A stretch of DNA of 34,226 nt from a virus, in the IMG/VR virus record IMGVR_UViG_3300017762_000032, positions 1 through 34,226 of that record; one strand, written 5' to 3'. A program made the position numbers and the translations under genes. The notes under the pieces are model-generated. The model saw nothing but the letters and a program-made list of their open reading frames with translations, made no database searches and was not told where the DNA came from. Below are positions 4,796-32,613 of this stretch, in pieces (position 1 is the first letter of the stretch; every line of letters starts with the position of its first letter).

Positions 4796-4842
4796 GTGGC
4801 TCCTCCATAACTATGCGTATTTACGCGAGAGGTGAGTATTTT

Positions 4843-6741: not shown

Positions 6742-6760
6742 TTAAAACTCCGAATTAGCC

Positions 6761-7174
6761 TTAAAAGGCTCCTGCGTCTAGCGTATCTGAATCACCTGAA
6801 GCGTCACCTACTATTATAGGCACAAACTCAAAAACTCCTGAACTAGTTTCGCGGTATACTTTTATTTGATTGTCATCAGTATCATAAAAGAGATCTCCCT
6901 CTTCTAAATTTGCGGTATCTGATGTGGGGGCTGTGGTGCCCCGAAATTGTTGATCTGCGAGTTGCTGTATTGCATCTCGTACATTATTTGCTGTAACTGT
7001 GCCGTGAGCATCGAAAGTAACATCTACAGCGTCAACATATGCTGTAGGTAGTGCAAAGTTGTTTACGGTAAGAGTGGTAGAGTCGTCAGATAAAGTAACA
7101 GATATATCGTTGGCATTTGACACAGATAGCTGTGTTACCTCTTCAACTATTTGTACGGTAGTGGTATCTGACAT
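6761..7174 (-). CDS. Small fiber-associated protein ending TLDAGAF
   Basis: A 137-aa acidic protein. It has MSDTTTVQIVEEVTQLSVSNANDISVTLSDDSTTLTVNNFALPTAYVDAVDVTFDAHGTVTANNVRDAIQQLADQQFRGTTAPTSDTANLEEGDLFYDTDDNQIKVYRE, which resembles short fiber-attachment modules of marine phages. The NLEEGDLFYDTDDNQIKVYRE part resembles a head-piece shared by many tail fibers (a protein region with a 'GDLWYDTxxNxLKVY' theme). The end SDTLDAGAF matches NTLDGGTF at the end of the following fiber. The start lies three bases after the previous stop (TAA-GGA-ATG). Exact role unknown. Confidence 0.72.
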   Translation of the reverse strand: MSDTTTVQIVEEVTQLSVSNANDISVTLSDDSTTLTVNNFALPTAYVDAVDVTFDAHGTVTANNVRDAIQQLADQQFRGTTAPTSDTANLEEGDLFYDTDDNQIKVYRETSSGVFEFVPIIVGDASGDSDTLDAGAF

Positions 7175-7177
7175 TCC

Positions 7178-7519
7178 TTATCTCGTGACTTCTTGATTTA
7201 GAGTTACCTTTCCTTCAATAAGGCGTTTTACTATATTATCCCCGCTTGTAAAAATTTCTAAATCATAGAAATAAACTCCTGCTGTCATGCCAGAAGTTGT
7301 AGCTGGAGCTAATTCCATTTTTACTTTACCTTGTGTAGCAGGACTAAGTACTGTACAAGTAAAGGAAGCCGCAACACTCGTAGCTGTTTTAGTTGACCGC
7401 ATTTGAGCCCTGGCAGAGTAGCCACTCAAGTCTTTGATAGACCCGGCCTCGTTGATTGTTATGTCAATCGCAAAAGTCGTTCCTTGGTCAATTGTCAGGT
7501 CATAGTTAGCTGCGGCCAT
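7178..7519 (-). CDS. Small beta-rich fiber/baseplate adaptor (BppU N-terminus-like)
   Basis: A 113-aa protein with the pattern YDLTIDQGTTFAIDITINEAGSIKDLSGYSARAQMRSTKTATSVAASF...GKVKMELAPATTSGMTAGVYFYDLEIFTSGDNIVKRLIEGKVTLNQEVTR. The opening (xLTIxQGxTF followed by DLSGYSARxQxR) is common in small phage proteins related to the N-terminal domain of the upper baseplate protein BppU. These are beta-sandwich modules that anchor receptor-binding parts. It is the first gene after the consensus promoter, with AGGAG nine bases before ATG. Probably an adaptor for the fibers that follow; that role is inferred. Confidence 0.78.
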   Translation of the reverse strand: MAAANYDLTIDQGTTFAIDITINEAGSIKDLSGYSARAQMRSTKTATSVAASFTCTVLSPATQGKVKMELAPATTSGMTAGVYFYDLEIFTSGDNIVKRLIEGKVTLNQEVTR

Positions 7520-7534
7520 TTATTTTTCTCCTAT

Positions 7535-7553
7535 TGTGGAATTATAGCCCACA
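7535..7553. promoter_or_regulatory. Short inverted repeat spanning the -10 of the fiber promoter
   Basis: TGTGG-N9-CCACA is a 5-bp inverted repeat centred on the TATAAT box. It could be an operator or chance; the other promoter does not have it. Confidence 0.2.
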
Positions 7554-7569
7554 GGACATATTATGTCAA
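7541..7569 (-). promoter_or_regulatory. Consensus sigma-70-type promoter for the fiber operon
   Basis: Minus strand: TTGACA (7569-7564), 17 nt, TATAAT (7546-7541). Both hexamers are perfect. The 20 bases CAAAAAATAAATCTTGACAT (7582-7563) are identical to the upstream part of the promoter at 26775-26803. The transcript would start near 7534, just before AGGAG and the ATG at 7519. The promoter fills the 69-nt gap after the J stop. I see no terminator between J and it. Confidence 0.93.
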
Positions 7570-7588
7570 GATTTATTTTTTGGAGGTA

Positions 7589-10500
7589 TTACGTACCGAG
7601 GTATCCAATTTTAACTCGATCATTTGTACCATCGCTAATTCGAATTACACCCTTGCCGCTTACTAATTCCATATGTATGCCTGCTCCGCTTTCTGTAGCG
7701 ACCTGAAGTTGTTGAGCAGTAATAGAATTTGCCGCTATTTTATCCGCAGTAATAGCATTAGCTTGAATCATATCTGCTTGAATCAAGTTAGCTTGTACAA
7801 TATCAGCAATAAGAGTTCCAGTTTGAGTAGTACCCGAAGCTACAGTTACAAGATCTACTTTATTTGCTTCTACTCCATTAGGTGCAAATGTTAAACTCGA
7901 AGCTTTAATCATTAACTCTTTGAAAGTAGAGTTACTTCGAGCGTAAGCATTCATCTTAACAATACTACTACTATTAGGATTAACTTCAAAACCCTGAGTA
8001 CCATCCGTTACAGTAAAAGTATTTCCACTATAGTTTGTAGCACTTGATCCTACTTGTAGGCTATTTTGAAAATAGTTTTTTGTAGCACTAAAAGTTTTTG
8101 TGCCTGATATGGTTTGAGTAGTATCTAAAGTTACTCCGCCCCCACTTCCATTTGAAGCAGCAGTAACACGCCCTTTCGCATCTACTGTAATATTTGCGTT
8201 CGTATAGTTAGTTGCAGTAACTCCAGAATCTGCGAGACGAGCAGCATTTAAAGTACCCGCATTGATATTAGAAGCGCTTCTGTAATAACTGCCTTCTTGT
8301 CCATCAAGCTTGTCTGCATCTAGTCCTGAACCTGAGCCGTCTGAGCTAGAGCCCCAGGACTCTCTCCATCCAGTAAAAGTACCGTTCCACATCATACGAT
8401 GGAAGCAGTGATCTGTTTGATGAGGAAAGTACTCTTGCAATACATAAGTAGATCCGGATCCGTCTGCATCTTGCCAGTTTGTTACACGCAATATACCCCA
8501 AGGATACGATCCAGTTGGCCCGTTTGAAACTATGTCGCCTGATTGGCTCCAGTTATTTACGTGATATGTGCCTGTAGTAGTATAGCTGTCAAAATCTTGA
8601 CTTGAACTATCAATTGTACTTCTTCTGTACGAATCAAAAATATTATCAGAAAGTCTTGCTACTGGAATAGTGCCACTAGAAAGGTTACTTGCATTCAAAT
8701 TAGAACTGCTTGTTAAGTATCCTGCAGAAGCATGATTACCCCAACCGTGTGCGGTTACTGCTTTTGCTCCGTCTGCTGCTACGTCTCTTCCATCGACTGT
8801 GCCAGTTACACTGATATTTCCAGATACTGACATACTGTATCCAATATTTACAGCAGTAACTGCATTGTTAGCAGTATTTGTTTGAATTGTAAGTGGGTAT
8901 GTTCCCGTATTATTTAGACGAATACTATAGTTACCACCGTCGGCAACCATCCACCAGCTTGGAGTATTTGTAATACCGCTTTCGGTTAATCTATACCTTG
9001 GAGCCGCAGCGGTAAGATTCATGTCTGTTGAAAGACGTGCATTGTTAATAGTTCCAGAAGTAATTTTAGTACCGCTTAAAGAAGCAGTAGAATTTGTAAT
9101 AAATCCTGAATTATTATTAAGGTCTGACGTATTTGAAGGAATTGATGTATTCCCAGCAAGGGCTGTTGTAGAAGTAGTGCCTAACTGAAGTAATGAAGTA
9201 TTACCAGCAAGGGCTGTTGTAGAAGTAGTGCCTAGCTGTAGAGCATCAGTAATTCCGTATCCTGATATAGTGGTCGGTTTTCCAGTTAAAGAGCTAAATG
9301 CACCATCAAACAGAGCCGTATTGCCCGCTAGAGCTGTTGTAGCGGTAGTACCTAACTGCAGTAATGAAGGCTTATTTGTTAGTGAATTATAGTTACCATC
9401 AAAGAGAGCTGTATTCCCCGCAAGAGCTGTTGTAGCGGTAGTACCTAACTGAAGTAATGGAGTATTACCAGCAAGAGCCGTTGTGGAAGTGGTACCTAAC
9501 TGCAGTAATGAAGTATTCCCAGCAAGAGCTGTTGTAGAAGTGGTACCTAACTGCAGTAATGAAGTATTACCAGCAAGAGCTGTTCCTGCAGTAGTGCCTA
9601 AAGTTAGGCCAATCTTTGTAATATCAGGCTGGCGAACATACAGTTCTTTATTGCCCATACCGCTCCAGTTAAGAATAACTAGAGATACATATCCATCTTG
9701 TGTAGCAGTATACTCTTTTTCAAAAGTAGTCCAAGCCGCAGGAGCTGCTCCGTTTTCGTACCAGTTAGAAACACCTGAATCGTCTTCTTGTACAAAAGGA
9801 GAACCGTTTGCAGAGCTGTTTGATACATGAGTTTTACCATCCGGCATGTTTCCATTGTGCTGATACAAGCGTAAGTATACTCCATCTGAATCAGCAGCAC
9901 TTGCTTTAATTGTAACTGTGAATCGAATTGTTTCTCCGTTCTTAATTCGCACAGCACGAAAAGCAGCGCCTATATTTGTATCATAGTCTCCAGTAATCAC
10001 TAAGCACTTTTCTGTTAGATCCCAGTAAACTGAATTTTCTGCTATAGTAGTGCTGCTTGCATCATAAGTAGGCTCCCACCCGAACCCTCTTGCGAGTGCT
10101 TGTAGCGTCCCGTCTGCAATATTTACTGTAGCAGCCCCAGAAGTTGCTCCTCCACTTAATCCTGTTCCCGCCGTAACGCTAGTAATATAACCAGCGCTTG
10201 CGTGATTACCCCAACCATGCGCAGTATTCCAATTAGTTGAGTTATTTGTAGTAACACTATAAGAACCTGAGCCGTTTGTAGTCATTAAGCCTGCAGATCC
10301 AAAGTCTGCATCTACAATAGCGGTTCCTAAAGACGTTAAGTACCCTTGAGTAGAGTGGTCTCCCCAGCCGTAAGCTGTGTTCCAATTAGTTGAGTTATCA
10401 GCAACAATACTGTAAGAGCCTGCAGAAGCACCTCTTTTCATCAAACCTGTAGAAGTAAAATCTCCATCTACAACTACATCCGCGTGAGAAGTCTGTGAGG

Positions 10501-13500
10501 TTAAGAAACGTCCGTCAATATCTACAGTTACGGTACCTCCATCAGCTTGATTAAGAGTTATAACTCCATCACCATTATTAAAAGAAGCGGATGTTATACT
10601 ATTATTATAAGCAGTGTTCCAGTTACTAGAGTTGTTAGTAAAATCGCTAGTGTCGTATAGCTTTACCCAGGCAGTGTTTGCTGCATTTGAGCCGTACATA
10701 CTTCGAACATATACATCACTAGTACTGTAGTCAATAAATAGCTGTGTAGTTCCATAACCACCTGAGTTAGCCCCCTTTTGAACTAGTAAAGATCCTGCTC
10801 TGTTATTAGGCCAATTATCCCCGTTTACTGCATCTGCGTTAGCTGTCTGATGATAAAACCCTGCATCACTTTGTTGAGCGTAGTTATCAAGATCAACAGC
10901 ACCCAGCTCGGTTGCTGTCACAGGAGAATCGCTTGAAGGAACAGCCGTTAGATACCCTGCGCTTGCGTGGTTACCCCAGCCGTAAGCTGTGTTCCAATTA
11001 GTTGAGTTACCTCCTGTAGCTGTTATTGTGCTGGATGCTGTAATAGTTCCTGTAACATTAAAGTTTTTTAAACTTTTTACGATATTGGAATGACTTTCAA
11101 AAATATTTTCCGTTCCAATACGATGAACAATTTCTTGGGAGGAAGAACTGAGTGTTAAAGCGTCTCCGCTTGTAGCATTTTGAGTGTCTATTGAGTAAAC
11201 AACAGCATCGTTACTGTCTTTGAAATAAATATGATGATCGTCATTGTCAGTAGTATCTTTTAGTTCAATTGTTGGGCTACCGTTGTGTATTTTAACAGGA
11301 CTTGTAAAAGTTTTATTTCCTCCAACTGTTTGATTACCACTCGTACGAATGACAGAACTGTCTACGCTAAACTCACCCCCAGCACTTTTGTCAATACCTG
11401 AACCTCCAGACAAAGCTGCTATAACACGAGTATCTGTGTAATACATTGTGCCCGAAGTAGTAGTGGCGCTCGGGTCTTCTGCTAGGTCTGCTGTGCTTAA
11501 TCCAGTTAAGTTATCTGCTCCCACATTAGTTAAATTAGAAGCATCCCCGTAAAAAGTACCATAAAACCCTGTTGCTTCTAAACGAGAGGTTCCTACTGAC
11601 CAACCTGCTGCGGTATCCCCTGTAATACCTACTCCACTCTCTTTGTACTGGAATAGTACATTTGCTTGAGTTCCTCTCTCAACTTCAATTCCGGCACTTT
11701 CAGTAGGAGTAGTTCCAGTAAAGTTACTATTTAGTAAAATAATATTGTCTGCTATATTGACTGTTTCAGTATTTAAAGTAGTTGTTGTGCCGCTTACAGT
11801 AAGATTTCCTTCTACTACAACATTGTTTGAAAAAGTTTTATTTCCTCCAACTGTTTGAGCGCCAGTTGTACGAACTACAGTACTATCTACAGCAATGTCA
11901 TTTGCATTTGCTGTAATACCATCTCCACCTACAACATTTAAAGTTTTACTAAATGCTCCTGAAGTCGCGGTACCGCCCCCTGTAAGACCATTTCCTGCTG
12001 TGACAGTTACTCCTGTAATATCTCCTACATTTGTAGTGTATCCCAGACCTATTACGAAGTCGCGTACATGATCCCCTGTAGGTATTGTAGTAGCGCCGTC
12101 ACTAACAGCTCCAGTATTTACGTTTAAAGTAACTGAGCCCGAAGTGCCTCCTCCAGTAAGTCCAGTACCCGCACTTACATTTGTAATGTCTCCAGTATTT
12201 GTTGTATAACTATAAGATAAAATCTTATCTTCTACAGCGGCAGCGGTCATTAAATGAGCGTCGTCATTTTCAAAAGTTGCTCCACCAGTAAGCAATGAAC
12301 CCGTAGCTATTTCTGAAGTAGTTAATCCGGATACATTCAAAGTAACAGAACCAGAAGTACCCCCTCCAGTAAGTCCAGTACCTGCACTTACATTTGTAAT
12401 GTCTCCAGTATTTGTTGTATAGTTAAAACTTTCAATTCTGTCGTTAATAGCAGATGCCGACATTAAACGAGCATCGGAATCTTCAAAACTTTCTCCGGCA
12501 ATAATTAAACTTCCTGCCGCTATTTCTGAAGTAGTTAAGCCAGAAACATTTAAAGTTACAGTTCCTGAAGTTCCTCCTCCAGTAAGACCGGTGCCGGCAG
12601 TAACTCCTAAAATGTCCCCTGTAGGTCCTGTTGCTACGGCAGTTACTCTACCATAAGCATCCAGAGTTATAGTATCAATTTTTGTACCATTGGCAGTAGA
12701 GCCATAAGTAGATGCTCCGGGTCCAGCAGTATTCAGTGCTAAGGTTACTCTATTATTTGCGTCATCATCTACTGCTGTTATTTCTGTGTGTAGATTGTGG
12801 TCAAATAATCCCCCGGCTACATCTCTAATTTCTTCGTAACTTCTTTGTGTGTTAGTGGCGGTAATTGTACCATCAGCATCAATAGTGATGTTTGTTCCTG
12901 CTGTAAGAGCAGCAACAACATTTACTGTATCAGTTACGTCTGCCAGGAGTTCAATACCATCGAGCTTTGTTTTATCTCCATTAGCAAAAGCACCTTCAGA
13001 AGGTTTTGGCTGAAGATTAGAAATAGTAACGCCCTTGACGCCCGCTAAATCTGTAAGCTCGTCGTCCATTAAGGCACCAGCAGTTCTAACATTTGCAGTG
13101 TCTGTTACATCGGCATTATTTTCTATAGTAGATAGTTTACTGTTTAGTGCTGCAACATCTGCGCCATCAACTGTTCCTAATAAAGTCAAGTTACCTGAAT
13201 TATCTAACTTCATTAATTCAGTATAATTAGCAGCGTCCGCATTTGTGGCATCTCTGCCCCAAACAAAACCGTCTCCGGTACCATTATTGTTTGTATCAAC
13301 AATAAAGTCCATCGAGGCCACGCTACCTAAAGTAGTACTATTAGTACCAATTGAACCATTGTCATCATCAAAGTCTAAGAAAGAATTTGAGCTAAACGAA
13401 GAGCTACTATAAATATCTGATCTAATACTTCCGAATGTTTTAGTTCCCGTAAAAGTTTGAGTACCCGACAAATGAGCTGTATTTGAAGATAAATAAGCGT

Positions 13501-16500
13501 CTGCAATTGGATCTCCTTGCCAAATTCCCGCCGTAATAGTACCTACTTGAGTAATTTGTAGGGCATTTATGTCTGATTTAGTTTGATCATCTTTTGCATT
13601 AGCCTCAATACCATCTAGCTTTGTTTTATCTCCGTCAGCAAAAGCTCCTTCTGAAGGTTTTGACTGAAGAGTAGAAATAGTGACACCTTTCACTCCTGCT
13701 AGATCGGTCAACTCATCATCCATTAAAGCACCAGCAGTTCTAACTTGAGATGTGGTAATTCCTGTTAAATAATTTGGATTAGTAGAAGGAACCCATGAAG
13801 GTGTCTGATTATTTGCACTTATTATTGCGGTGTTGCCGGATACTGAAACGTCTATTCCGGTAGTAAAGTTTAGAGTGTCTGCGGTTGTGAGTTTATTTGA
13901 CCCATCTTCCTGTACAATAAGCTCGGGAGTGGCAGAAGCATTAACAACTGAGTTTGCATCAATAACTACACCCGATAATACAAGGTTTGATCCGTCAAAT
14001 AAAACGTGCTTACTTGCATTACCAAACACCATCTTACCGCCCGTAAGATCCATAAAGGCACCACTTTCACTTCCTGAAGGAGAAGCATTAGCATCTGGAA
14101 TAGTGCCGCCTTTTAGTGTGCCTGCTGTAATGTCGCCCATGTTTGCTGTAAGAGCAGATAGAGTGTTTGTAGTAATATCCGAAGCATTGATAGTTGTTGC
14201 ATCAATAATTGTTGATACAATACTATTTGCTTTAATATGGGAAGACTGAATTGTAGATGCCGTAAGTAGTGATGAAACTACAGAGTTGGCAGTAATCATA
14301 TTTGAATTAATACTATTTGCTGCTATAGTTTCTGTAGTAACAGAGTTTGCTAAAATAGTATTTGCAGTTACTGAGTTAGCAGCAAGTTCTTCTGTTGTAA
14401 TACTATTTGCAGAGATATTATTTGCAGTAATGCTGTTTGCCGCAAGCGTTTCTGTTGTAATTGAGTTTGCGGCAATCTTATCTGCATTAATTGAATTTGC
14501 AGAGATTTTGTCTGCTGTGATTGAGTTTGCTGCAAGTTTGTCTACAGAGATTGCTCCATCGGGTACTTCTGTAGTTCCGTCATCTCCCGTGTTTAAGGTT
14601 ACGCCGTCTACTATAGTACGAAGAGTTAACAAACTAGTAAGTTTGATAGTGTTGCCTGTTTTTCTTAGTTTTGCAACTATAGTATCATCTTCATAATTAG
14701 GTCTAAAGTTAGCTCTATAAGCTGTTAGAGACGATTTTGCAGTATCAAAGACTTTGTCAATTTTAAGTTCTGTATTTGATATTACATCAGTTACAATAGC
14801 GCCATCCGCCAAATTTGTGGGCGAAGTAGTGTCTGCTAAATTAAGAACATCTCCTATTATAACACTGTTTAAGAATCCAGAACCTGTTACAGTATTACTG
14901 TTCGCAGAAATATTGACGCTTCCAATAGAAGTCCAAGTACTAGATAAAGCAGTATTTCCTGTACCTACATCATAGTAGAAAGAAGACGACAAAGAGTCTT
15001 TATCGTAGTATAAAATCTGTAACTCAGGAACACTACTATCTAAGTAAACTAAATAGTCCTTATCTGCTCCAATATTTGCGACGTTAGTACTACCTGTTAA
15101 TATATGAAGAGTTTCAGGGGCTGATGGAGTTGCTACTTGAGCATTAGACGCTTGAAACTGAATAGTATTCAAGGCGGTGATAATAAGCTGAGCAGAAGAA
15201 AAAGCCCCACGAGGAATACCTTTTGCAACTCTAGGAATCGCGTCCTCGTAGACGTCTAAGAATGTATAAGATACTAAAGCATAAGGAGAATAGTTTCCTC
15301 CCGTAGATACGGCGCGAACTTGAAAGTTCAAACGATCACTGCTAATTCCTGCTAACCGAAGAAAAGTGTCGGAAGTTCTTATAGGATTCTCGATGTCTGG
15401 AATATTGTGTCTAACTTCGTAAGAGTCAACAAAATCAGAAGTACTAGCTTCCCATTCAAGCTTTAGCTCTTCTCCGGGCTTATCAGGATCTGTTTCCAGA
15501 ATTACTCGAGGACTAGTAGGAGGAGCCATTTCGTCCTCCCCGTCTCGGGGCTCTGCTTCTACATAGATTGTTGTAGGAATACTTCCAGTTTCGTATCCGT
15601 TATCTACTGCTCCATATTTTTCATCATAGTGTTCAACGGCCGAAAAACCATACTCATTTGATTTGTCTTGGTTTATTGAAAGAACTCTGTACTTTTTGTA
15701 AGAGCCTACAACATCTAAGTTATCCTTGCTCTCTTTCAAAGCCCAAATAGTATTTGCTACTGGAGTAGTTTCAAAAGAAGAAACATCGAGAGTATTTGTA
15801 GTTCCTGCAGAAGTTGTAACTGTATTTTCTTGTACATAAGAGTACTCTTTCCATACAACAGGCAACAAATGATATGCATCATTTGAGTCTTTGTAAAATG
15901 CGTTAGATGCTTTTGCTTCTGTATCTAAAGAAACTGAAGTATACGCGGACCCATTGTGGTTGTATAAGTTTGTAGTAATTCGATCGCCTCTGGAGTATAC
16001 AGTACCATCTGTAGTTACTTCATCCCCGCTACTATTAAGTCTAAGGTCTGACTGCCCTACATAAAATACAGCGGGCTCTGTTACTAAAGTGCTTAAAGTA
16101 TAAGTAGACCCTGCATTTAAAGTAATAGAACGATCTAGAACAGCGGCAGTGCTAGTAGCGGAAGCCAATCTACCACTATATTGAACACCTTCCCTATCTG
16201 CGTCTTGTACGTTAATTACATCTCCAGGCTTTATGTATAGAGAGTTTAGTGCTGATTTAAAGCTAACTACCTCTGTCTGCTTTTGGGCAGTCCACAACTT
16301 CCAACGACCGTAACGAATTGCCTGAGCTTCAGATGTACATCCAAAGGCTACTACTTCTTCCGTTATTATTCTTTTATCACGAACAATGGCTTCTCGATCT
16401 TCTACAATAAGAGGCACAGGCTCATAGTTTGACTTTGGATCGTTCCAAGTAACAATTACTTGATTAGACCTAGTCTTTAATCCTGAAGACTCATATCCAA

Positions 16501-18418: not shown

Positions 18419-18420
18419 TC

Positions 18421-19254
18421 TTAGTTACCTCCTAGCTGTGTTTGCTGTATCGCTACCAGCGACCAATCTATTGTTCCTGAGCCGCCCATAGGTGCAGAAA
18501 TTCCTCCTGCGCTTCCTCCGGTAGCTCCTATACTTTGTGCATCATATGAGTTTCCATTACTTTCACCAGAAGTAGCTCTCTGGCTATGATTTGCAAATTG
18601 AGTACTTTCGCCTCTTGTATGAAAACTTATTGTTCTTCCAGGTATTCGTAATTCTCCGTATAGTACAGGAACGGGATCACCCTCTGCGATATTTTGTTTG
18701 GCGCCTTGAAAAATGTAACTTTCATCTTGTTGATTATCAGTAGAAGGATCTGGAGCCATCATCTGTTGTAGGCCTCCTATGGCAAGATTAATCCCTATAC
18801 CTAAGGCCATTTGCCCCAACATAGTGCCGCTAGCAGACACTACACCTCCCGCAATACCTGAAGCAACAGAACCAAATGTCATAGTTCCGGCGGCTGTAGT
18901 AAAGGCTGCAGAACCTGCCGCTGCCGCTGCCGCCATTCCTCCAGTCATTACAGTAACTGCTATTGCTGCAAGAATTTTTGCAGGGCCGCTTTTAGAACCT
19001 GCAGGAACAGGAGTGATAATCATATCCCCTTCTCTATAGAGAAGTAGTGCTTCGGCTTCGTTTTTAATAGGTCTTCCTTCTACTTCAAGTATAAATCCAA
19101 TATTTTTATCATGACATTCCTGAAGATAAGGCATAAACCCATTAAAGTTACATTTTAAACATCGAAAAACTTCAACAAAAGAATCAGCAGCTATCTGAAG
19201 TTCTTTTCCGAAACGAACTCCCATTTCCCCTTCTAAGTAAATATTACGTTTCAT
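18421..19254 (-). CDS. I: Tail assembly protein I-like
   Basis: A 277-aa protein with the lambda tail I pattern. The N-terminal ubiquitin-like domain (YLEGEMGVRFGKELQIAADSFVEVFRCLKCNF...FILEVEGR) and EGDMIITPVPAGSKSG are followed by a long Ala/Gly-rich hydrophobic region (about 93-165, KILAAIAVTVMTGGMAAAAAAG). After that come DESYIFQGAKQNIAEGDPVPVLYGELRIPG and a Gly/Ser-rich end. In lambda, gpI acts at the tip-assembly stage with K, L and J and is not retained in the virion. The stop is two bases before the J start, and the AGGAGGT ribosome site of J is inside this gene's last codons. Confidence 0.88.
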   Translation of the reverse strand: MKRNIYLEGEMGVRFGKELQIAADSFVEVFRCLKCNFNGFMPYLQECHDKNIGFILEVEGRPIKNEAEALLLYREGDMIITPVPAGSKSGPAKILAAIAVTVMTGGMAAAAAAGSAAFTTAAGTMTFGSVASGIAGGVVSASGTMLGQMALGIGINLAIGGLQQMMAPDPSTDNQQDESYIFQGAKQNIAEGDPVPVLYGELRIPGRTISFHTRGESTQFANHSQRATSGESNGNSYDAQSIGATGGSAGGISAPMGGSGTIDWSLVAIQQTQLGGN

Positions 19255-19930
19255 ATCTATAAATTCCTACAATGTGCTTTCTCCAGAAAGGGTATAATGA
19301 TTCTCTGCAAGAAAGTCTATGTACTGCATGATGAAAAAAGACATCATTTCCTAAGTATACTCCACAGTGGTTAGCCACCTCTGCGTCTATTTGAAAAATT
19401 AAAACATCGTTCTTTTGAGGGCTATCTACCTTAGTTAATCCCCAGTTTTTTATGTTTTCTTCTGTAAAATAATTTAAGCCTTTAGACCACCAGTCGTCTT
19501 CAAAAAGGTCTCTTGGAGGAATATTTATTCCTTCTGAAGCAAGCCAATCTCTTGAAGCTTCAAAGCAGTCCGCACTAGCAAACTTATATTCTCTGCCCAA
19601 CAGAGGATTTGCTCTTACTTTTGGCTCTAAAATATTAAGTTCCATTTCAGGATAGCTAAAAATATAGTAGGGTATTCCTAAAGCATTACAGTTATCTACA
19701 TCTCCTTCGCTAGGCGTATTGTCAGAGTCTGGATGATTATGAACTATTGCTATAATATCCATACTTCTCTTATACTTCATATAATCAGCAGAAGACATTA
19801 TAAAGCTTTCATTGTCTTCTGCTACATTTTCGCAAGGAAAATATCGTTTTTTACCTTTTACAACTCCTATAATCCCACAAGCTTCTCTAGGATACTCTGC
19901 TTCAAAGTGCTCCTGTAATTGTTCTATCAC
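19244..19930 (-). CDS. K: Minor tail protein K-like: JAMM metalloprotease plus NlpC/P60 peptidase
   Basis: A 228-aa two-domain protein. Residues 1 to about 105 are a JAMM/MPN domain with the complete motif: E16, H64-x-H66-x7-S74-x2-D77 (VHNHPDSDNTPSEGD). Residues about 110-228 are an NlpC/P60 domain with catalytic Cys in SADCFEASRDWL (C122) and His in ANHCGVYLGND (H188). By family, it cleaves peptide bonds in the murein layer during entry or processes tip components. It begins with GTG at 19930, fixed by the 4-nt GTGA overlap with the L stop, and overlaps the I gene by 11 nt. Both active sites look intact. Confidence 0.92.
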   Translation of the reverse strand: MIEQLQEHFEAEYPREACGIIGVVKGKKRYFPCENVAEDNESFIMSSADYMKYKRSMDIIAIVHNHPDSDNTPSEGDVDNCNALGIPYYIFSYPEMELNILEPKVRANPLLGREYKFASADCFEASRDWLASEGINIPPRDLFEDDWWSKGLNYFTEENIKNWGLTKVDSPQKNDVLIFQIDAEVANHCGVYLGNDVFFHHAVHRLSCRESLYPFWRKHIVGIYRYET

Positions 19931-20928
19931 TTAAATTTTCTCGATCCAGGAAACCCACCAAAAGGCAAAGTAAAAGAAGTATTTAAAGTATCATCTGTAT
20001 TGTTTCCTTGGAAACGTTTTTTACAGCCTGTAAGAGTTTTTGAACATACGTCTAGTCTTTTCCAGTAAGAAGGATGTTTAGTAGGATCTCTGTTAGCGGG
20101 TACGGCTCTTGTTGCTTCCCATATTTGAACATGTCCGCTTCCAGTAGTTTTAACTTTAGCATCTGCAGCATAAGTACCGCTACTAGACCAAGTAGAAATA
20201 CTAGTAATATTTCTAGTAATTAACTCATCTTTTTCATTAAAAAATCTTCCATTTCCGTTTAAAGGCCAGTTACACCCACCTTCATTATTTAACGGACCTC
20301 CTTGATATCTCCACACACAGTATCTACCAATTACTACTCGTCCTGGTACTTTCACGCCTTCTACGTCAATTGGGCTAGCAAGCTCAAACTCTACCAGTAT
20401 ACTATCTTCTGAAGCCACTCTGTCGATAATGTAAGTTTGGCTAGGAAATTCTACAGGAGGCGCCGTTGGGTGTGCGTCCGTACTTCTAGAAGTATTTGAA
20501 AGTAGGGTTCTTCTGTAGTCTATTCTAGTATTTAAAAAACTTTCATTTTTGTATAGCCCTTCATCTGCTAGAATAGAATAGAGAGTTTCTTCGTCTGCTG
20601 TCCCATTTTCATCGTTTGAAATAGAACGAGTAAGAGTAGGAATATTTGCAATTCGTAAAGAAGGCCTAGGGCTTGCGCCAGCACCGTTTATCTCTACTCC
20701 TTCTATACTTACGGGTATAGCAAAATATTCTTTTAGCGGGTACTTGTTATAAGTAGCAGACTGATCATCTGTATCTAAAGTTTTACTTGGAAAATAAATA
20801 TTACTAGACCCATCGTCCAGTCCGTTAAAGATGTATACTTTTGCGCCGCTCGGCAGAGTTACATCAAATAACTCTACGTAAGCGTCTTCAATTTCTTGAA
20901 GTTGTACTGTATCAATTAAATCTGTCAT
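19927..20928 (-). CDS. L: Minor tail protein L-like (cysteine cluster) with inserted carbohydrate-binding-like module
   Basis: A lambda gpL homologue of 333 aa if started at MTDLIDTV. The frame also has an ATG at 20961, but that would overlap the M gene by 31 nt; the start at 20928 follows the M stop by two bases and is preferred. Four cysteines (C204, C219, C295, C302 in this numbering) lie in GRYCVWRYQGGPLNNEGGCNW and RLDVCSKTLTGCKKRF. Lambda gpL uses such cysteines to bind an iron-sulfur cluster in the tail hub. The end LPFGGFPGSRKF is typical. Between the second and third cysteines lies STWSSSGTYAADAKVKTTGS...SYWKRLDVC, which looks like a CBM5/12-type small carbohydrate-binding fold inserted into the loop. 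The TGA stop overlaps the next GTG start. Confidence 0.88.
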   Translation of the reverse strand: MTDLIDTVQLQEIEDAYVELFDVTLPSGAKVYIFNGLDDGSSNIYFPSKTLDTDDQSATYNKYPLKEYFAIPVSIEGVEINGAGASPRPSLRIANIPTLTRSISNDENGTADEETLYSILADEGLYKNESFLNTRIDYRRTLLSNTSRSTDAHPTAPPVEFPSQTYIIDRVASEDSILVEFELASPIDVEGVKVPGRVVIGRYCVWRYQGGPLNNEGGCNWPLNGNGRFFNEKDELITRNITSISTWSSSGTYAADAKVKTTGSGHVQIWEATRAVPANRDPTKHPSYWKRLDVCSKTLTGCKKRFQGNNTDDTLNTSFTLPFGGFPGSRKFK

Positions 20929-20930
20929 AA

Positions 20931-21347
20931 TTAAGGCTCGTAAACTCTTCTTAATTCGCAACTTAAGCTGTGATTAGTTGCTTGTCCATAACTTATATTA
21001 TAGTCGTCACAAACTACTTTAATTGTACTCGTAGTAAGATTTCCCTGACTAAACTTATCTGTAATTACAAAGTCAAAACTTTTACCTGCGCTATCATCTA
21101 AAAATGCTGCAATAAGATTTATATCTGAGGCATCTCTATTTTTGAAAGATATGCTGAACTGATCTTGCTTTGTGTTAATACCGTCTAATACTCTCTGCTC
21201 ATACCCATCACCAAACTTTGCTGTAAGCACGTTATGTTTAGACTTTCTTGAAAGCCCTCGATCGGCGACTGCTTCGAATGCGCCAGAAGTGGTACCTTTC
21301 AAATTTGTTACTTTACTTGCAGAGATTGTAAAACTAAACGTTGCCAT
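20931..21347 (-). CDS. M: Minor tail protein M-like
   Basis: A 138-aa protein with the phage minor tail family signature: AKFGDGYEQRVLDGINTKQDQFSISFKNRD, then AAFLDDSAGKSFDFVITD and a C-terminal SCELRRVYEP. In lambda, gpM joins the tail tip complex that starts tube assembly. Order tape measure-M-L-K-I-J is the same as lambda. GGAG in the end of the tape-measure gene precedes the ATG, which overlaps the preceding stop by one base. Confidence 0.87.
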   Translation of the reverse strand: MATFSFTISASKVTNLKGTTSGAFEAVADRGLSRKSKHNVLTAKFGDGYEQRVLDGINTKQDQFSISFKNRDASDINLIAAFLDDSAGKSFDFVITDKFSQGNLTTSTIKVVCDDYNISYGQATNHSLSCELRRVYEP

Positions 21348-24300
21348 TATGCTGCTCCATGCTTATTAAGGATTCCGCCTGCTCGCTTCTGATTGTGAAG
21401 CTCTTTCTGTACTGCGGCGGCAATAACTTGTCCTAGATTTTCACCCATTGCTCCATTTGAGGAGGACTGTACCTGGCCATCCGTAGATACATTTACAGTA
21501 ACATTGTTGTTTTGCATCCCTCCGTTCCCGTTCATTTGTACAGGAATTGAGTTGCCGTTTGGAAGAGGCACTACAGCTTCTCGACCGTGTAACATTGCAA
21601 GATGTCCTGAGTTTGGACCGTCCGCGATACCGCCTGTAGCATATCCGGATACTTTAGAACCATTATTCATGATTCCTCCGTTCTTAAATCCGAATAGACT
21701 CATAGCTCCGCCTAATATGGGGCCGATGCCTGGTATCATAGAAGCGAGACCACTAAGTAATCCACCACCTCCGGCACCTCCACCAAATAGACTGCCTATA
21801 CTTCCAAATAAATCACCAAACATGCTTCCAAAGCTACCAAGTAAATTATCAAAGATGCCACTAAATCCGCCTTTAAAAGAGTTAAATAGCTTGCCTAAAC
21901 TGCCTCCCTCTCCGAAAAGATTTCCGAACATTTTGCCAAGGCTTCCCTCTTTTCCGAAAAGCTTTGAGAAAAATCCCTTTGTAGGCTCTGGCAGGGTTAA
22001 CTTAGGGCCTGCTCCATCCATTCCCATGCCTGCAACATTTCCTGCGTCTGCAATACCGTTTTCAATTGCTACTGCTCTACTAGTTTCAGGTATAGCTGCA
22101 CGAACTTCTTCCAGCTCGGTTTCTTTCATTGCAGCATTAATTCCCTTCATAGTTTTACTAGCAAGGGTTTCTTCAGGAGAGCCTGCATCTGGTACTCCCG
22201 GAGTCGAGGGCGGAGGTACAGGCTTTTGCTCACAACACTCTAACTTTACTCGCGTACTACTTAAAGCATTTTTTATCTCTTGCTTAAGTACGGCTGCGCC
22301 TGCAGTAATACCTGTTTTTGCTTGATTTTGAACACCTGAATTTGGATCATTAATAGCTGTGGTTATAGCGCTTGCCATTTTTTGAGCATTGGTTTGTTTT
22401 CCAAAAGCCTTTGCTAAAGCATCCATTATAGGATCAACAATTAAAAACTGAGTAACTGCTTTTTGAACGGCTGTAAGAAGATCTCTACCAATTTGTCGCA
22501 ATTGCTCTCCAAGACTTTCGCTTTTATCATAAAGGCTTGTAAACATTGCATTAATTGCATCTCCTAAACTCTTCTCAAAACTATCTACAGCACTTGCAAA
22601 AAGTTTGTTAAAGGGCTGCTCTTGCTCTAATTTTGCAGCAGCAAGTCGTACAGCACGCTCTAACCCCTCTTGGGAGGCTTGAGCTTGAACATTTGCATTT
22701 TCTATCATTGCGGCTTTTTGCCCAGTTAGATCCATATTTGTCAATCCAGAAATTGCATCATCTATTGCTGAAATATCTTGAGGACTAAATAAGCTGGGCT
22801 TTTCTTTCATTCTTGCTTTTAGTAATTTTGCTTCTATAACAGACTGTTTATTTTTAGCTTCAAGAAGCTTAAACTCCATGTCTATTTGATTTAGTTTATT
22901 TGCCAGCTCTATTTGTATAAATGCGCTTTCTACTGCTACTCTCTTTACAGCTTGGTCATACTCGAATTGAGCAGCGGCTCTGCTCTCTCGTATAAAAGGA
23001 TTAGCCCCTGTTGTAGTATCAAAAACTTCTTTATCTTTGTCTTGGTCTAATTGTGCCCTTGTTCTTGCAGTATCAAGTAAAGTTTTAGATGTCTTAATTG
23101 CAAAGTCAGCTGCTTGTTTTTCAAAGTTCATTATTTTGATAATGTTTTGAAGGCGCTCTTGTCCTTCGAATAAATCTTTATTTGTTTCTAAAAAGTTGAG
23201 CTCTTGCTGAATAAGTTTAAATTTAGCATCTTCTAACTTAATTCTAGCTTTCAAAAGTCCGAGCTGTCTTTGAACTTCTTCGGTTTCTAAAATTCCTTCG
23301 TTTTTAGCAAAAGAGATTAGTCTTCCTTTTTCTGTAATTAAAAACTTGGAGGCGCTTTCTGTTTTTGCAAGTTTATCTTCTGTTTTAAGAATGTTTCCTT
23401 GAGCCTTAGAAATTTTAGCATAGTTTCTAACAGATTCTGTCTGAAGTCTGAGGCCTTCTCTCTTTTTAACATTTTCATGGCTTGCAATGGCAAGCCCTAG
23501 CTCTTGTTGATATACCAGCCTTGCTTTTTCTTTTGCCTCTTCCGCTGTTAAAGTTCTGCTTTGTTGAATTGCTCTTAAAGTGTTAAGCTGGGCAGTGGCG
23601 GCTAGTCGTAATTGATCTCCTTCAATTCTAGGAGCTAGTTTATTTTGCACACCTGTAAAAGCTTGCGCTGTAGCAGTTGCTTGTTGTTTTAAACTTGTGA
23701 GGTGGCCGCCTAAACCTGCTACAGCTTTTTGATTTTTTAAGATACTTTCTCTTAAAGCTTCGAATTCTGCTTCTGTAAGTTTTAAAGTACCTTTAGAAAC
23801 TTGCTCCAGCTTAAGTATATCCGATTGAAGCGAAGTGAATGCTTTGTAATTTTCTATTCCTAAGTCTTCCATGGCAGAGGCAAAGCCATTTAAGCTGCCT
23901 ATATTTTGTTCTAAAAGCTCTTTTGAGGCTTTCATTTCATCTGATAGTTCAAACTTAGTTTGGTCAATACCAGCGGCAGCTTCAGCTAAATTTATTGTAT
24001 CCGCAGTAAGTTTTGATAACCCATTTGAAATAGTGTCGTCAATTAGTTCGTCTCCAAAAACAGTTCTTATTATACCAAACCCACTCTTGGTAACGACGTT
24101 ACTGCCTTCGAACGAGCGTAAAAACCCGTCTGTACGCTTCTTTAAATTTTCTACATTTTTTTCTGCAACAAGATACTCCGCATTCATGTTTTGAAGATTA
24201 CCTAAGAATTCATCTGCTGTTCTAGGACTAAAACTAGTTGCTAACATATTTGCCAAAGCTTCAGCAGCTCCACGAGTAACCTCAAACTCATGTTTTGCGT

Positions 24301-25903
24301 GTTCTACAGTTGCAATTTGAATTGCTTGAAAGTTTTCGTATTCCTTCGACAGGCTGATAATTTTTTCTTGAGCTAATTCTGTAGCTTTTGCGGAAGCTTC
24401 TGCCTTTCTTTCTTCTTGAGTTAGATCTACATCCTCTTTAAAGTACTGTACTACAGATTTATAAGCAACTGCTGCTATACCTAGAATACCTATTGCTCTA
24501 GTAATAGCGGAAATAGCTCTTGTAACTGCTGCAAATCCTGCTTGCATTGTAGCCATAAAGCCAGCCCACGATGCTCGCATACGTAGCATATTTCGTTCAA
24601 AAAACCCTACTTGTTTGTCTAAAGCGTCATCCATCTCGTCTAGAGTTCTAGTAAAGTTAGTTAAAACTTCTTTATCTCTACCTGCAAAGATACCTTTTGT
24701 TATCTTTCCGCTTTTTTCGTACTCTTTTTCTGCCGCTCTTAAAGCTTTTCGTAAATTAGCTTTATCTACTCCGATTAAGTTTTCGCCTTTTGCCAATCTT
24801 TGAAGAATTTTACTCTTATTTTGACCTTCTGATACTTCTTTTTCTGCTAGAGTTTTGAGGCGAGCAGCCTTAGCTTCTTTAGTATTAAGAAGCTGTTTTT
24901 CTTTTGTCTCTAGCTCTTTTAATGAGGCCACTTGTCTAGCTGCAGACTCTTCAGCACTTTCAGCAATACTCCCAAAGCTAAGGCCCATTGCACTCATAGG
25001 GCCTGTTAATAGAAGCGCAAAGGCTGCTCCCGCTAATAAGGGCGTATCTTTTAATACTGTTGCCAGAGGCCCTGCTAGACCCGACACTATTTCTTTTATA
25101 CTATTTTGAACTTCGTCAAATGCAACTCCTAGCTGGGAGAACTCATTGGGACTATTACCAACAAGTTCTAGTATTCTTGAGTATTTTGCTTCTGATTGCC
25201 CTAAGACATTATTTACTACCGCTTGGCTTTTTTGAAACTGCGTTAAAGAGTTTACATCGAGATTTAAAGAATCTGCATATTCTTGAGTTGCATCCTTTAG
25301 TCGTAAAATAATACCTAATTCATCTAGTAGTTCTGGCTCGGCTTTTGTGACGCCCCTTACTAAACGATTAAAAGAGTCTGTAACATCCCTTCCTAATATT
25401 TGAGATGCGTCTGCAGCATCTACGCCTAATCTGTTAAGTTGATCTGCCGATAGTCCCGCAGCTGCACCAATTGCTCCCGCTTGAGCAGCGTCTTGAAAAG
25501 TAACCTGATTTCTAGTGGCTTCTTGAATATCCTTAGCAAGGCTTCTCATTGCTGTACCCGTAGAAGAAGCATAAGCCATTTGACCTGCTTTAAGTGCTTC
25601 TAAATCTCCGGCTCTTTTGAGGAAATTGAATGCAGCACTAACAGCAAATAACTGAGCCGCTAAAGCAGCGTACACGCCAACAAAGCCCCCCATGCCTGCA
25701 GAAAATTTAGAAAAGTTTTTAGAAGCATTTGCAGATTGCTCTCCAACACCTTTTAACCCTTTTTGAAACTTATCTCCGGATTTGGTAGTTTTCTTTTGAG
25801 CATCGTCAAGACCGTCTAACTGTCCGCGCAATGCTTTAGCGTCGACAGTTGCTTTTGTCATCTTGCCGTTGACTTCAATATCTATTTGAATTTTCTTTGA
25901 CAT
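21347..25903 (-). CDS. Tail tape measure protein
   Basis: A 1518-aa protein that fixes tail length and occupies the tube lumen. The N-terminus carries KIQIDIEVNGKMTKATVDAKALRGQLDGL and a hydrophobic stretch at about 70-96. Further hydrophobic stretches lie near 275-310 and 465-495. A long helical, Lys/Glu/Ala/Gln-rich middle follows (about 500-1250). The C-terminus is Gly/Phe-rich (repeated LFGxxGSLGKLF-type pieces, then SMIPGIGPILGGAMSLFGF) and ends with the typical tape-measure signature YATGGIADGPNSGHLAMLHGREAVVPLPNGNSIPVQM. At about 0.15 nm per residue, the lambda-derived rule, the tail would be near 230 nm; this is inference. It is coupled by one-base TAATG overlaps to the genes on both sides. 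Confidence 0.93.
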   Translation of the reverse strand: MSKKIQIDIEVNGKMTKATVDAKALRGQLDGLDDAQKKTTKSGDKFQKGLKGVGEQSANASKNFSKFSAGMGGFVGVYAALAAQLFAVSAAFNFLKRAGDLEALKAGQMAYASSTGTAMRSLAKDIQEATRNQVTFQDAAQAGAIGAAAGLSADQLNRLGVDAADASQILGRDVTDSFNRLVRGVTKAEPELLDELGIILRLKDATQEYADSLNLDVNSLTQFQKSQAVVNNVLGQSEAKYSRILELVGNSPNEFSQLGVAFDEVQNSIKEIVSGLAGPLATVLKDTPLLAGAAFALLLTGPMSAMGLSFGSIAESAEESAARQVASLKELETKEKQLLNTKEAKAARLKTLAEKEVSEGQNKSKILQRLAKGENLIGVDKANLRKALRAAEKEYEKSGKITKGIFAGRDKEVLTNFTRTLDEMDDALDKQVGFFERNMLRMRASWAGFMATMQAGFAAVTRAISAITRAIGILGIAAVAYKSVVQYFKEDVDLTQEERKAEASAKATELAQEKIISLSKEYENFQAIQIATVEHAKHEFEVTRGAAEALANMLATSFSPRTADEFLGNLQNMNAEYLVAEKNVENLKKRTDGFLRSFEGSNVVTKSGFGIIRTVFGDELIDDTISNGLSKLTADTINLAEAAAGIDQTKFELSDEMKASKELLEQNIGSLNGFASAMEDLGIENYKAFTSLQSDILKLEQVSKGTLKLTEAEFEALRESILKNQKAVAGLGGHLTSLKQQATATAQAFTGVQNKLAPRIEGDQLRLAATAQLNTLRAIQQSRTLTAEEAKEKARLVYQQELGLAIASHENVKKREGLRLQTESVRNYAKISKAQGNILKTEDKLAKTESASKFLITEKGRLISFAKNEGILETEEVQRQLGLLKARIKLEDAKFKLIQQELNFLETNKDLFEGQERLQNIIKIMNFEKQAADFAIKTSKTLLDTARTRAQLDQDKDKEVFDTTTGANPFIRESRAAAQFEYDQAVKRVAVESAFIQIELANKLNQIDMEFKLLEAKNKQSVIEAKLLKARMKEKPSLFSPQDISAIDDAISGLTNMDLTGQKAAMIENANVQAQASQEGLERAVRLAAAKLEQEQPFNKLFASAVDSFEKSLGDAINAMFTSLYDKSESLGEQLRQIGRDLLTAVQKAVTQFLIVDPIMDALAKAFGKQTNAQKMASAITTAINDPNSGVQNQAKTGITAGAAVLKQEIKNALSSTRVKLECCEQKPVPPPSTPGVPDAGSPEETLASKTMKGINAAMKETELEEVRAAIPETSRAVAIENGIADAGNVAGMGMDGAGPKLTLPEPTKGFFSKLFGKEGSLGKMFGNLFGEGGSLGKLFNSFKGGFSGIFDNLLGSFGSMFGDLFGSIGSLFGGGAGGGGLLSGLASMIPGIGPILGGAMSLFGFKNGGIMNNGSKVSGYATGGIADGPNSGHLAMLHGREAVVPLPNGNSIPVQMNGNGGMQNNNVTVNVSTDGQVQSSSNGAMGENLGQVIAAAVQKELHNQKRAGGILNKHGAA

Positions 25904-26738
25904 TAGCCTTGAATATTATGGGCGAGGTTTTTCCCACCGCTTTTAGCTCTACGCTCATCCGCTTTACGCTTCTCTTCTGCTTTCTTGGCACGAAAAGAAA
26001 CTACTTCACCTTCGTATATTTTCATTAAATATACTATTTCTTTTGGATTATCTATTTGGTATAAATTAAAAAAGTACTCTAATCCATGCCAATGTTTTCC
26101 CATATATGTTCCGCTCATTCCCTCCCAGTAGTCTGGTAGTAAGCTAAACATAAAAAATGCCACTTGAACCTCCTCTGGAAAATCAGACGGCTCGAGCGGC
26201 ATTTTGGTAGGGTCGGGTTCTTGACCTAATTGTTCACATAAAAGTAGATACTTATCTACATCTACGTTAGATTCTGACTCTTTTATGTAACGTGCTAAAA
26301 GATTACGTACTTCTTCTAGCTGCTCACTGTAAAATTTTCAAGATCACCTACAGTTTCTGTTACCCAAGTATCAAAAATATTTGAGTTTTTCATAAGAAGC
26401 TCTGCGTTCTCTTGAGTATAAGGAAGCTCATCTTCAGGGTCATAGGCCGAGACATCTACCAAAAGAAGCTCTTCTAGGTATGAAAACTTCAAGCCAGACC
26501 ATGTTTTAATTACACCTTTGCAGTATTCTACAAGAAACTTTTCTTCGTCTAATACTTCTTCGGGTTGTCGAGTTCGCTTATCGAATTTAGTTGTTACACA
26601 TTTTTTGCGTAACTTTAATAGTTCTTCTCGACCCAAGTAGCATAAGCTAACTTTCATACCTGAGTACCCAGGAAAGTCAATAGAAACTGTTTTGCTAGGA
26701 GTCATAAGACTCGATAAAGAAATAGGTGAATCGCTCAT
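25903..26738 (-). CDS. GT: Tail assembly chaperone, frameshifted long form (gpG-T-like)
   Basis: Predicted -1 frameshift product of about 278 aa. The first 136 residues are those of the short form. After the slip at 26337-26331, translation continues YSEQLEEVRNLLARYIKESE, then through MPLEPSDFPEEVQVAFFMFSLLPDYWEGMSGTYMGKHWHGLEYFFNLYQID to a lysine-rich end ending NIQG. The T frame is open from just before the slip site to 25903 and has no ribosome site at its first ATG (26202), so an independent T gene is unlikely. In lambda, the T part binds tube subunits while G binds the tape measure. The TAA stop shares its last base with the tape-measure ATG (TAATG). Confidence 0.85.
26316..26738 (-). 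CDS. G: Tail assembly chaperone, short form (gpG-like)
   Basis: A 140-aa acidic protein in the lambda gpG / HK97 gp13 position, between major tail protein and tape measure. Seen: VSIDFPGYSGMKVSLCYLGREELLKLRKKCVTTKFDKRTRQPEEVLDEEKFLVEYCKGVIKTWSGL, a common beginning for siphovirus chaperones. It then continues to an acidic DPEDELPYTQENAELLMKN segment and ends ENFTVSS. Such proteins coat the tape measure before tube polymerisation and are absent from the virion. The gene has AAAGGA before ATG and is the first gene after the consensus promoter. A slippery heptamer lies four codons before its stop, linking it to the T extension. Confidence 0.88.
   Translation of the reverse strand: MSDSPISLSSLMTPSKTVSIDFPGYSGMKVSLCYLGREELLKLRKKCVTTKFDKRTRQPEEVLDEEKFLVEYCKGVIKTWSGLKFSYLEELLLVDVSAYDPEDELPYTQENAELLMKNSNIFDTWVTETVGDLENFTVSS
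26331..26337 (-). promoter_or_regulatory. -1 ribosomal slippery heptamer A AAT TTT
   Basis: In the G frame the mRNA reads GAA AAT TTT ACA, giving heptamer A AAU UUU, which fits the X XXY YYZ rule. A shift by -1 re-pairs AAA and UUU and leads into YSEQLEEV. The zero-frame stop (TAG) is at 26318-26316, 12 nt after the heptamer. The -1 frame is closed by TGA just upstream (26340-26338), so the slip window is very narrow and includes this heptamer. Confidence 0.85.
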
Positions 26739-26774
26739 TTTGTGTCCTTTAAGAGTGTAAATTTATATCTTGTA

Positions 26775-26803
26775 ATTATAGGTCAAAGGAGGTGAGATGT
26801 CAA
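26775..26803 (-). promoter_or_regulatory. Consensus sigma-70-type promoter for the tail chaperone-tape-tip operon
   Basis: Minus strand: TTGACA (26803-26798), exactly 17 nt, TATAAT (26780-26775). Both hexamers are perfect matches to the housekeeping sigma consensus. The -35 is preceded by AT-rich AAAAAATAAATC. The 20 bases CAAAAAATAAATCTTGACAT (26816-26797) are identical to those of the promoter at 7541-7569. The expected start of transcription is near 26768, leaving a 5' leader of roughly 30 nt before the AAAGGA ribosome site and ATG at 26738. Confidence 0.93.
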
Positions 26804-26821
26804 GATTTATTTTTTGTAGGA

Positions 26822-26848
26822 GTAAAGAAAAGGGGCCGAAGCCCCTTA
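26822..26848 (-). terminator. Strong rho-independent terminator after the major tail gene
   Basis: Minus strand: AAGGGGC, loop TTCG, GCCCCTT, then TTCTTT. It is a perfect 7-bp stem with four GC pairs closed by a stable UUCG tetraloop and followed by a T-rich tract. It starts about 18 nt after the major tail stop codon and lies directly upstream of the consensus promoter at 26775-26803. Confidence 0.93.
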
Positions 26849-32001: not shown

Positions 32002-32613
32002 TGTTATCTCCTTTTGAACTGACTTTTCAGTTCCATCCGGTGCATCACTAGCTTCAAATGAATCTTCATCTTTAGCCAGAGACTGACCGGCTAGATCTAC
32101 ACTATTAGTGAAAGTTTTTTTGAACTCATTGTACTCTTCAATAGAGTCAAATGATTTCGCGAGAGAGAAAGTAGCTGCTTGGTTACAAGGTACCGATACC
32201 ACTGATACTTCAAACAACTCAGCATCCTTTATCTTTAATCCGTCAGTTTCCGATAAGTAATCAGCATCCTTGACTCGGAAACCAACAGAAAATGCTCCAA
32301 GAATGCCTTCTTTTACAAGCTGCGCGACATGATCGGGCGCAGACTTAGAAATTTTAGCCTTAAGTTCAAGACCGTTTTCAGTGACTTTAAGTCCTGTAGC
32401 GCGTCCGATAGGCTTGTTATAATCGTGATTGAAAAGAATGATAGGATTCTTTTCGAAGTTACCAAGGCCGCCCTTGGTCCATGCTTCGGCTGAAATTGTA
32501 TCTCCAGCTCGGTCGAAGTCAGCAGTGCTAGCCATTCCGCAAATGTGGACGCTACCATCGTCGTCTTCATTGAGTGCTTTAAACGTAGAGGTAAGGTTAA
32601 AAATCTTTTCCAT
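30595..32613 (-). CDS. Fused prohead protease - major capsid protein
   Basis: A single 672-aa reading frame carries two functions that HK97 encodes separately. Residues 1 to about 165 are an HK97 gp4-like prohead protease (family U35, herpesvirus-protease fold). H63 lies in ILFNHDYNKPIGR, S109 in GAFSVGF, and acidic residues in AELFEVSVVSVPCNQAA; H63 and S109 are the likely catalytic pair. Residues about 205-318 are Ala/Glu/Lys-rich and strongly coiled-coil, like the delta (scaffolding) domain of HK97 capsid precursors. Residues about 360-672 are an HK97-fold capsid protein (TEVSSQIEKEIQRELRLARAF, then YRLISSTLMDNHIDEEVLINLMP, FGTPVIVSDNFP). The start overlaps the preceding stop (TAATG) and has only a weak ribosome site. 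A much stronger one precedes M205. A terminator follows the stop. Confidence 0.93.
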   Translation of the reverse strand: MEKIFNLTSTFKALNEDDDGSVHICGMASTADFDRAGDTISAEAWTKGGLGNFEKNPIILFNHDYNKPIGRATGLKVTENGLELKAKISKSAPDHVAQLVKEGILGAFSVGFRVKDADYLSETDGLKIKDAELFEVSVVSVPCNQAATFSLAKSFDSIEEYNEFKKTFTNSVDLAGQSLAKDEDSFEASDAPDGTEKSVQKEITMSEVKTPEIDLEAFAKKVADETAAKIAIRQAEEKAAVEAEAKAVQEAAEAEAAKQAEVESVIKTGIESGAERLMSDIQAKLSEKDAKIDEVIAQHQKDLEEKNAELTAMRDSKRVFADRTDGDSISKWGKEFMYAHMAGVMTGNKNLDQTDYGKSILEKAGISYATAAPNIATEVSSQIEKEIQRELRLARAFREITINSQAQVLPIQTDTNLASWQSGAATTPNLENKTQVAGNTYQPSQVVLKAYRLISSTLMDNHIDEEVLINLMPMLVESVARAHARAVDDALLNHVATGGSDAFDGLVKLAGSNSVSVLDAAGGNSVDTAVTASEFLDARKLMGKYGMMPEEMVYVVSQARYYDLIADAGFADITDVGSDVATKITGQVGAIFGTPVIVSDNFPAEANGAPVGLAINVRNFAIPRLRGVNVEQDYEVMNQRNVVVATQSLGFNQLVGDTSADKSVIKLVRTDA

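Follow-up and report, generated by a model that had tools for sequence, protein, structure and literature searches.

Introduction

Phage T5 has strong σ70 promoters before its early and its late genes alike, and how a T5-like phage shifts from early to late expression with strong host-type promoters before both classes is stated to be unsolved (PMC7472727). Two of the late promoters, PJ5 and PG25, are σ70 promoters in the structural region that are on from 30 min (PMC7472727), and the difference between early and late promoters lies mainly in the discriminator (Klimuk et al. 2020, PMC7472727). The proximal subsite of an UP element is an A-tract adjoining the -35 hexamer, where one C-terminal domain of the α subunit binds (reviewed in PMC10911233).

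Here we analyse a stretch of viral DNA of 34,226 nucleotides (IMG/VR record IMGVR_UViG_3300017762_000032), which we call the window and in which a first-pass annotation had picked out two perfect consensus promoters behind one shared 20-base stretch. We consider it probable that these promoters, P1 and P2, belong to a family of strong host σ70 promoters with a fixed UP element, found genome-wide in an uncultured, mostly marine T5-like branch, and we propose that timing is read at the junction of the -10 hexamer and the discriminator. The roles of the promoters are read here from sequence.

Genes of the window and related phages

All the genes of the window, like P1 and P2, point left (minus strand). 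The head-side genes encode the portal, a 672-aa protease/capsid protein, a head-tail adaptor, a tail terminator and the major tail protein; the tail-side genes encode two tail chaperones, the tape measure, minor tail proteins, a 3609-aa central fibre, an L-shaped-fibre assembly protein and fibres. Relatives were reached by tblastn, since a megablast search of phage records with the window gave no match. The closest isolated relatives of the portal (about 40% identity), the chaperone and the tape measure are Vibrio and enterobacterial T5-like phages (Demerecviridae), while the L-fibre assembly protein has its nearest homologues in cyanophages, pelagiphages and others. Because in two relatives, G042 and G048, a single molecule carries both homologues of the structural genes in the window (portal 66-70%) and a replication module arranged as in T5 (D2, D3, ligA, ligB, D5, helicase, primase, polymerase, D10-D15), we take the window, judging by its gene content, to hold the structural half of the genome of an uncultured T5-like phage.

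The 672-aa frame (30595-32613, minus strand) matches both the prohead protease and the major capsid families (phrog_80, phrog_617), so that the two proteins, which T5 encodes in two genes, look fused in the window. Its homologues in four relatives (G016, G042, G048 and G051) match along the entire length.

The two promoters

The 20-mer CAAAAAATAAATCTTGACAT is present twice in the window, with no mismatch and on the minus strand both times (7563-7582 and 26797-26816); no third site is found in the window even with three mismatches allowed, shuffles giving an expectation of zero, and a search of the window for further copies of the motif with two mismatches found none above chance besides the two exact ones. 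Each copy forms part of a perfect TTGACA-17-TATAAT (7541-7569 and 26775-26803), and the spacer sequence of P1 is unlike that of P2; the annotated pair is thus borne out, and the set to which it belongs has proved larger. These are the only two perfect TTGACA/TATAAT pairs at a spacing of 15-19 in the whole window (none in 100 shuffles) and the only sites to match 12/12 in simple promoter scans, in which promoter-like sites as a whole are about as numerous as chance would give. Both stand in a gap immediately 5' of a co-directional gene, 21 nt (P1) and 36 nt (P2) from -10 to gene.

The whole of P1, from the upstream A-tract through the -35 hexamer and the 17-nt spacer to the -10 hexamer, occupies 7541..7582 on the minus strand. 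Its AAAAATA (7574..7580) lies at -46 to -40, the position of a proximal UP element, followed by TTGACA (7564..7569) and TATAAT (7541..7546); behind the latter comes TCCACAAT, which is of the late type (not AT), and transcription is predicted to start near 7534. P2 occupies 26775..26816, likewise on the minus strand, with AAAAATA at the same proximal position (26808..26814, -46 to -40), TTGACA at 26798..26803 and TATAAT at 26775..26780, then TACAAGAT, again of the late type, and a predicted start near 26768.

Conservation of the promoter unit

Homologues of the two downstream proteins were fetched by protein and the DNA upstream of them was then read, which avoids selection by motif. The P1 set comprises orthologous promoters from 19 distinct relatives, of which 18 were aligned, before proteins mostly 53-80% identical; the P2 set comprises 55 distinct promoters before proteins 77-99% identical. 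Since the relatives share ancestry and are not independent, there were fewer evolutionary events than these counts suggest. The hexamers are spaced as in σ70 promoters (16-18 nt apart), and each of the 74 homologue-anchored promoters has a 17-nt spacer. Without exception in either set, -46 to -42 read AAAAA, -40 is A, -36 is C and -35 to -31 read TTGAC; -41 is T throughout the P1 set, so that all seven columns of AAAAATA are invariant there, and T in 84% or A in 16% of the P2 set, which keeps the other six. At -30, A and T are about equally common. Within the spacer, T at -17 has no exception in either set, and A at -25 has very few. The positions -48, -47, -39 to -37, -30 and -29 are free among the relatives, and the sequence upstream of -47 varies too. 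The promoter is absent upstream of remoter P1 homologues (below about 50% identity, and also in L109/L112 at 58%).

As several of the free positions fall within the 20-mer, the element that had been annotated is identical in both gaps, as was said, yet it is not the real unit: this is the UP element, -35 hexamer, 17-nt spacer and -10 hexamer. That the pair agrees over all 20 bases is a matter of chance, a single draw from the conserved motif; arithmetic from the column frequencies gives about 0.003 for chance agreement at the seven free positions, which is unsurprising among hundreds of relatives. One could instead see in two fully identical 20-mers with different flanks a recent duplication or gene conversion, or the boundary of a module exchange, with the promoter match secondary. 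We regard this as very improbable: it is mostly ruled out by the orthologues of P1 and P2 in dozens of relatives, each with its own variants at the free positions, and none of 47 related records holds two exact copies of the 20-mer with TATAAT.

The AT-rich stretch upstream of the -35 hexamer is most likely an UP element, which the first-pass annotation had suggested alongside a factor site, since an A/T tract stands at -46 to -38 in fixed phase to -35, exactly in the phase of the proximal subsite, and the block is invariant in two independent homologue sets. The proximal consensus is reportedly AAAAAARnR at -46 to -38 (Estrem et al. 1998, 1999); six of the seven conserved columns fit it, the seventh, -41, being T or A, and -39 is free there as it is in the P1 and P2 sets. 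Usual UP elements differ in being far less strictly conserved than this block, and no obvious distal subsite is seen here. In the mechanism that we favour, σ region 4 would read C-TTGAC(A/T), region 2 would read TATAAT 17 bases on, and the α C-terminal domain would bind the invariant AAAAATA at -46 to -40.

Comparison with T5 promoters

The strong promoters of T5 (PN25, PH207, PK28, PJ5, PG25 and others) have the same σ70 architecture with a 17-nt spacer, and T5, like the present phage, also has promoters inside its structural region. Over the 46 annotated T5 promoters (many mapped, some predicted), A reaches 83-89% at -45 to -43 and 76-89% over -45 to -42, an A-run that is in phase with the A-tract here; in Proteus and Vibrio T5-like phages the run is weaker and at about T5's position. 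The present branch thus shares with T5 the run at -45 to -42 as well as the structural and replication modules (the latter through G042 and G048). It departs from T5 in several respects. Most T5 promoters have TTGCTT or TTGCTA as -35 where the branch has CTTGAC(A/T), and the P1/P2 family does not show the commonest T5 form (TTGCTT or TTGCTA, then TATAAT). The A-run is followed by TA, not TT(T). Both hexamers are perfect at P1 and P2 and in only one of the 46 T5 promoters; strong T5 promoters are said never to combine both consensus hexamers (Gentz and Bujard, 1985). None of four isolated relatives has the strict motif AAAAATANNNCTTGAC-18-TATAAT, and T5 lacks AAAAATANNNCTTGAC. The P1/P2 family is a variant of the T5-type strong promoter with an UP element; strictly speaking, its members are not T5 promoters.

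The family in viral and cellular sequence

Scanned for exact copies of the 20-mer, IMG/VR yielded at least 80 contigs or loci, and in each of the 80 viral matches listed a -10 hexamer follows 16 nt on, TATAAT in 76 and GATAAT in four; the reversed 20-mer has no viral match in IMG/VR. Bacterial and archaeal genomes (257 Gb of cellular sequence) hold nine matches, none with a -10 at the right spacing. The occurrence of the 20-mer at many non-promoter sites had been named as what would tell against a promoter, and this comparison favours one. Most of the listed viral loci stand before a 248-aa protein that corresponds to ligB, in T5 the small subunit of a split NAD ligase (36% identity, phrog_3498), the next gene being a D5 homologue (48%); in T5 the same place, before ligB, is taken by PK28a and PK28b. 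Because this ligB set was retrieved with the 20-mer itself, its upstream conservation is by construction, and it is excluded as evidence that the 20-mer is conserved.

Relatives were scanned with a combined score for UP element, -35 and -10. The 92-kb G016 has 23 sites (reversed control 1; 18 sites at a stricter score of 18), the 98-kb G042 has 26 (reversed control 0) and G048 has 8 (0), with 4 in G051, 6 in G013, 8 in G031 and 2 in the window. Almost all of these sites lie in gaps before co-directional genes, those of G016 in the replication and structural regions alike, and across the relatives the promoter precedes the replication genes ligA, ligB and D3 and those in the D11 neighbourhood. 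The same promoter core would therewith serve replication genes too. The first-pass annotation had held perfect consensus promoters to be rare before late phage genes; that they are rare here, or special to late genes, is not supported, for the same promoter stands before replication genes and T5 has strong σ70 promoters before early and late genes (PMC7472727). The surprise at consensus late promoters has its precedent in PJ5 and PG25, which are late-on σ70 promoters in the structural region.

In G016 (L217-L221; 91.8 kb) the D5 gene is split, with one half at each contig end, which makes it likely that this contig is a circularised and complete genome from the group.

Could P1 and P2 be ordinary AT-rich phage promoters, with an A-tract that is mere base composition and a consensus match due to chance? 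The window is about 60% A+T, and CTTGAC-18-TATAAT with a wrong-phase A-tract also has more than 120 matches in IMG/VR. Such a reading is scarcely credible and is refuted by the column pattern in the homologue-anchored sets, where invariant columns are flanked by freely varying ones; shuffles contain no such sites, and the wrong-phase loci are not T5-like phages. Among the matches listed, T5-like phages account for 55 of 79 loci with the in-phase motif and for 1 of 80 when the A-tract is moved by 5 bp. In-phase AAAAATANNNCTTGAC-18-TATAAT can therefore serve as a sequence signature for contigs of uncultured T5-like phages. Three promoter copies, two of them divergent, lie within 280 bp (1663-1940) of L398, a small viral contig in which no T5 genes are recognisable.

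Early and late promoters

With the early and late classes assigned by gene homology with T5, and among relatives that are not independent, the octamer TATAATAT is found in 69 of 74 distinct promoters of replication-gene homologues and in 5 of 83 structural ones. The two kinds of copy differ at the last base of the -10 hexamer and the first bases after it, reading TATAATAT before replication genes and TATAATT or TATACTAT before structural genes. Over whole contigs, A at -6 occurs at 36 of 38 sites outside the structural block and at 3 of 17 inside it (Fisher p 1.6e-8), and the A+T content of the spacer at -22 to -14 is about 72-81% in early and 44-56% in late copies. Where T follows the -10 hexamer in the P2 set, the hexamer is TATAAT (37/37), and where A follows it is TATACT in 14 of 20; it looks as if each late form avoids, in its own way, TATAATAT, the octamer that we regard as a candidate early/late mark. 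T5 likewise has its early/late difference just behind the -10 hexamer, although the late form at PJ5 and PG25 is not TATAATT, and T5 itself does not follow the octamer difference, since PG25 reads TATAATATT.

The T5 switch uses gpT5.026, of which no homologue was detected in G016, G042 and G048 (partial or uncultured contigs, in which remote homologues could escape); the protein is present in T5 and in Proteus phage Stubb, with weak matches in Vibrio and Aeromonas relatives. Homologues of A1 (T5 pre-early) and C2 were likewise not detected in the same three relatives. Because all three proteins were missed there, this group may lack, or may have replaced, the two-step DNA transfer of T5 and its polymerase-binding switch. 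D5, by contrast, is well conserved, with homologues in the relatives at 48-50% identity, and the T5 record describes D5 as DNA-binding and needed for late transcription. A D5-like regulator, or another phage protein, might then occupy the AAAAATA-NNN-C block and recruit or redirect the host polymerase there, instead of or besides α. The near invariance of the block, which is stricter than UP elements require, would leave room for such a DNA-binding protein. We think this unlikely, as the block is identical at early and late promoters and so cannot set timing, its phase is that of the proximal UP subsite, -41 tolerates A or T only, and a near-consensus pair of hexamers should need no activator.

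Retaining the UP element, we suggest, tentatively and with some doubt, that one maximal σ70/UP core is common to all promoters of the branch and that the time of expression is written in the -10/discriminator junction (TATAATAT early, TATAATT or TATACTAT late), which would amount to a minimal two-state code read without gpT5.026 and possibly with a D5-like protein. Dozens of natural early and late promoters with the same core and few differing positions make the timing question testable by swapping one to three bases.

Predicted transcription units

The division of the structural genes by the pair, proposed at first annotation, agrees with the gene content: P2 stands before the tail-assembly genes (chaperone, tape measure, tail tip, long fibre) and P1 before the fibre unit. 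Directly upstream of P2, and 3' of the major tail protein gene, lies a predicted intrinsic terminator, AAGGGGCTTCGGCCCCTT followed by TTCTTT (26830..26847, minus strand; -12.6 kcal/mol, z -2.5), and most P2 relatives have a GC hairpin at this position. Since P2 sits directly behind this strong terminator, we suggest that it restarts transcription past the end of the head and major-tail-protein unit for tail assembly. The unit would be headed by the 140-aa tail assembly chaperone (phrog_313; 26316..26738, minus strand) and continue with the second chaperone, the tape measure, the minor tail proteins and the 3609-aa central fibre (7589..26202, minus strand).

No terminator was found upstream of P1 (z -0.7), which comes after the stop codon of the central fibre gene. 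P1 would drive the fibre unit (2-7519, minus strand), whose first gene (7178..7519, minus strand) encodes a 113-aa protein of the L-shaped tail fibre assembly family (phrog_1084/3304) behind a leader of about 15 nt with a ribosome site. The -35 and spacer of P1 also contain a perfect palindrome, GACAT-AAT-ATGTC (7552-7567, minus strand), which is a possible operator; its GTC at -23 to -21 is retained in about 78% of the P1 relatives, and P2 has CTC there.
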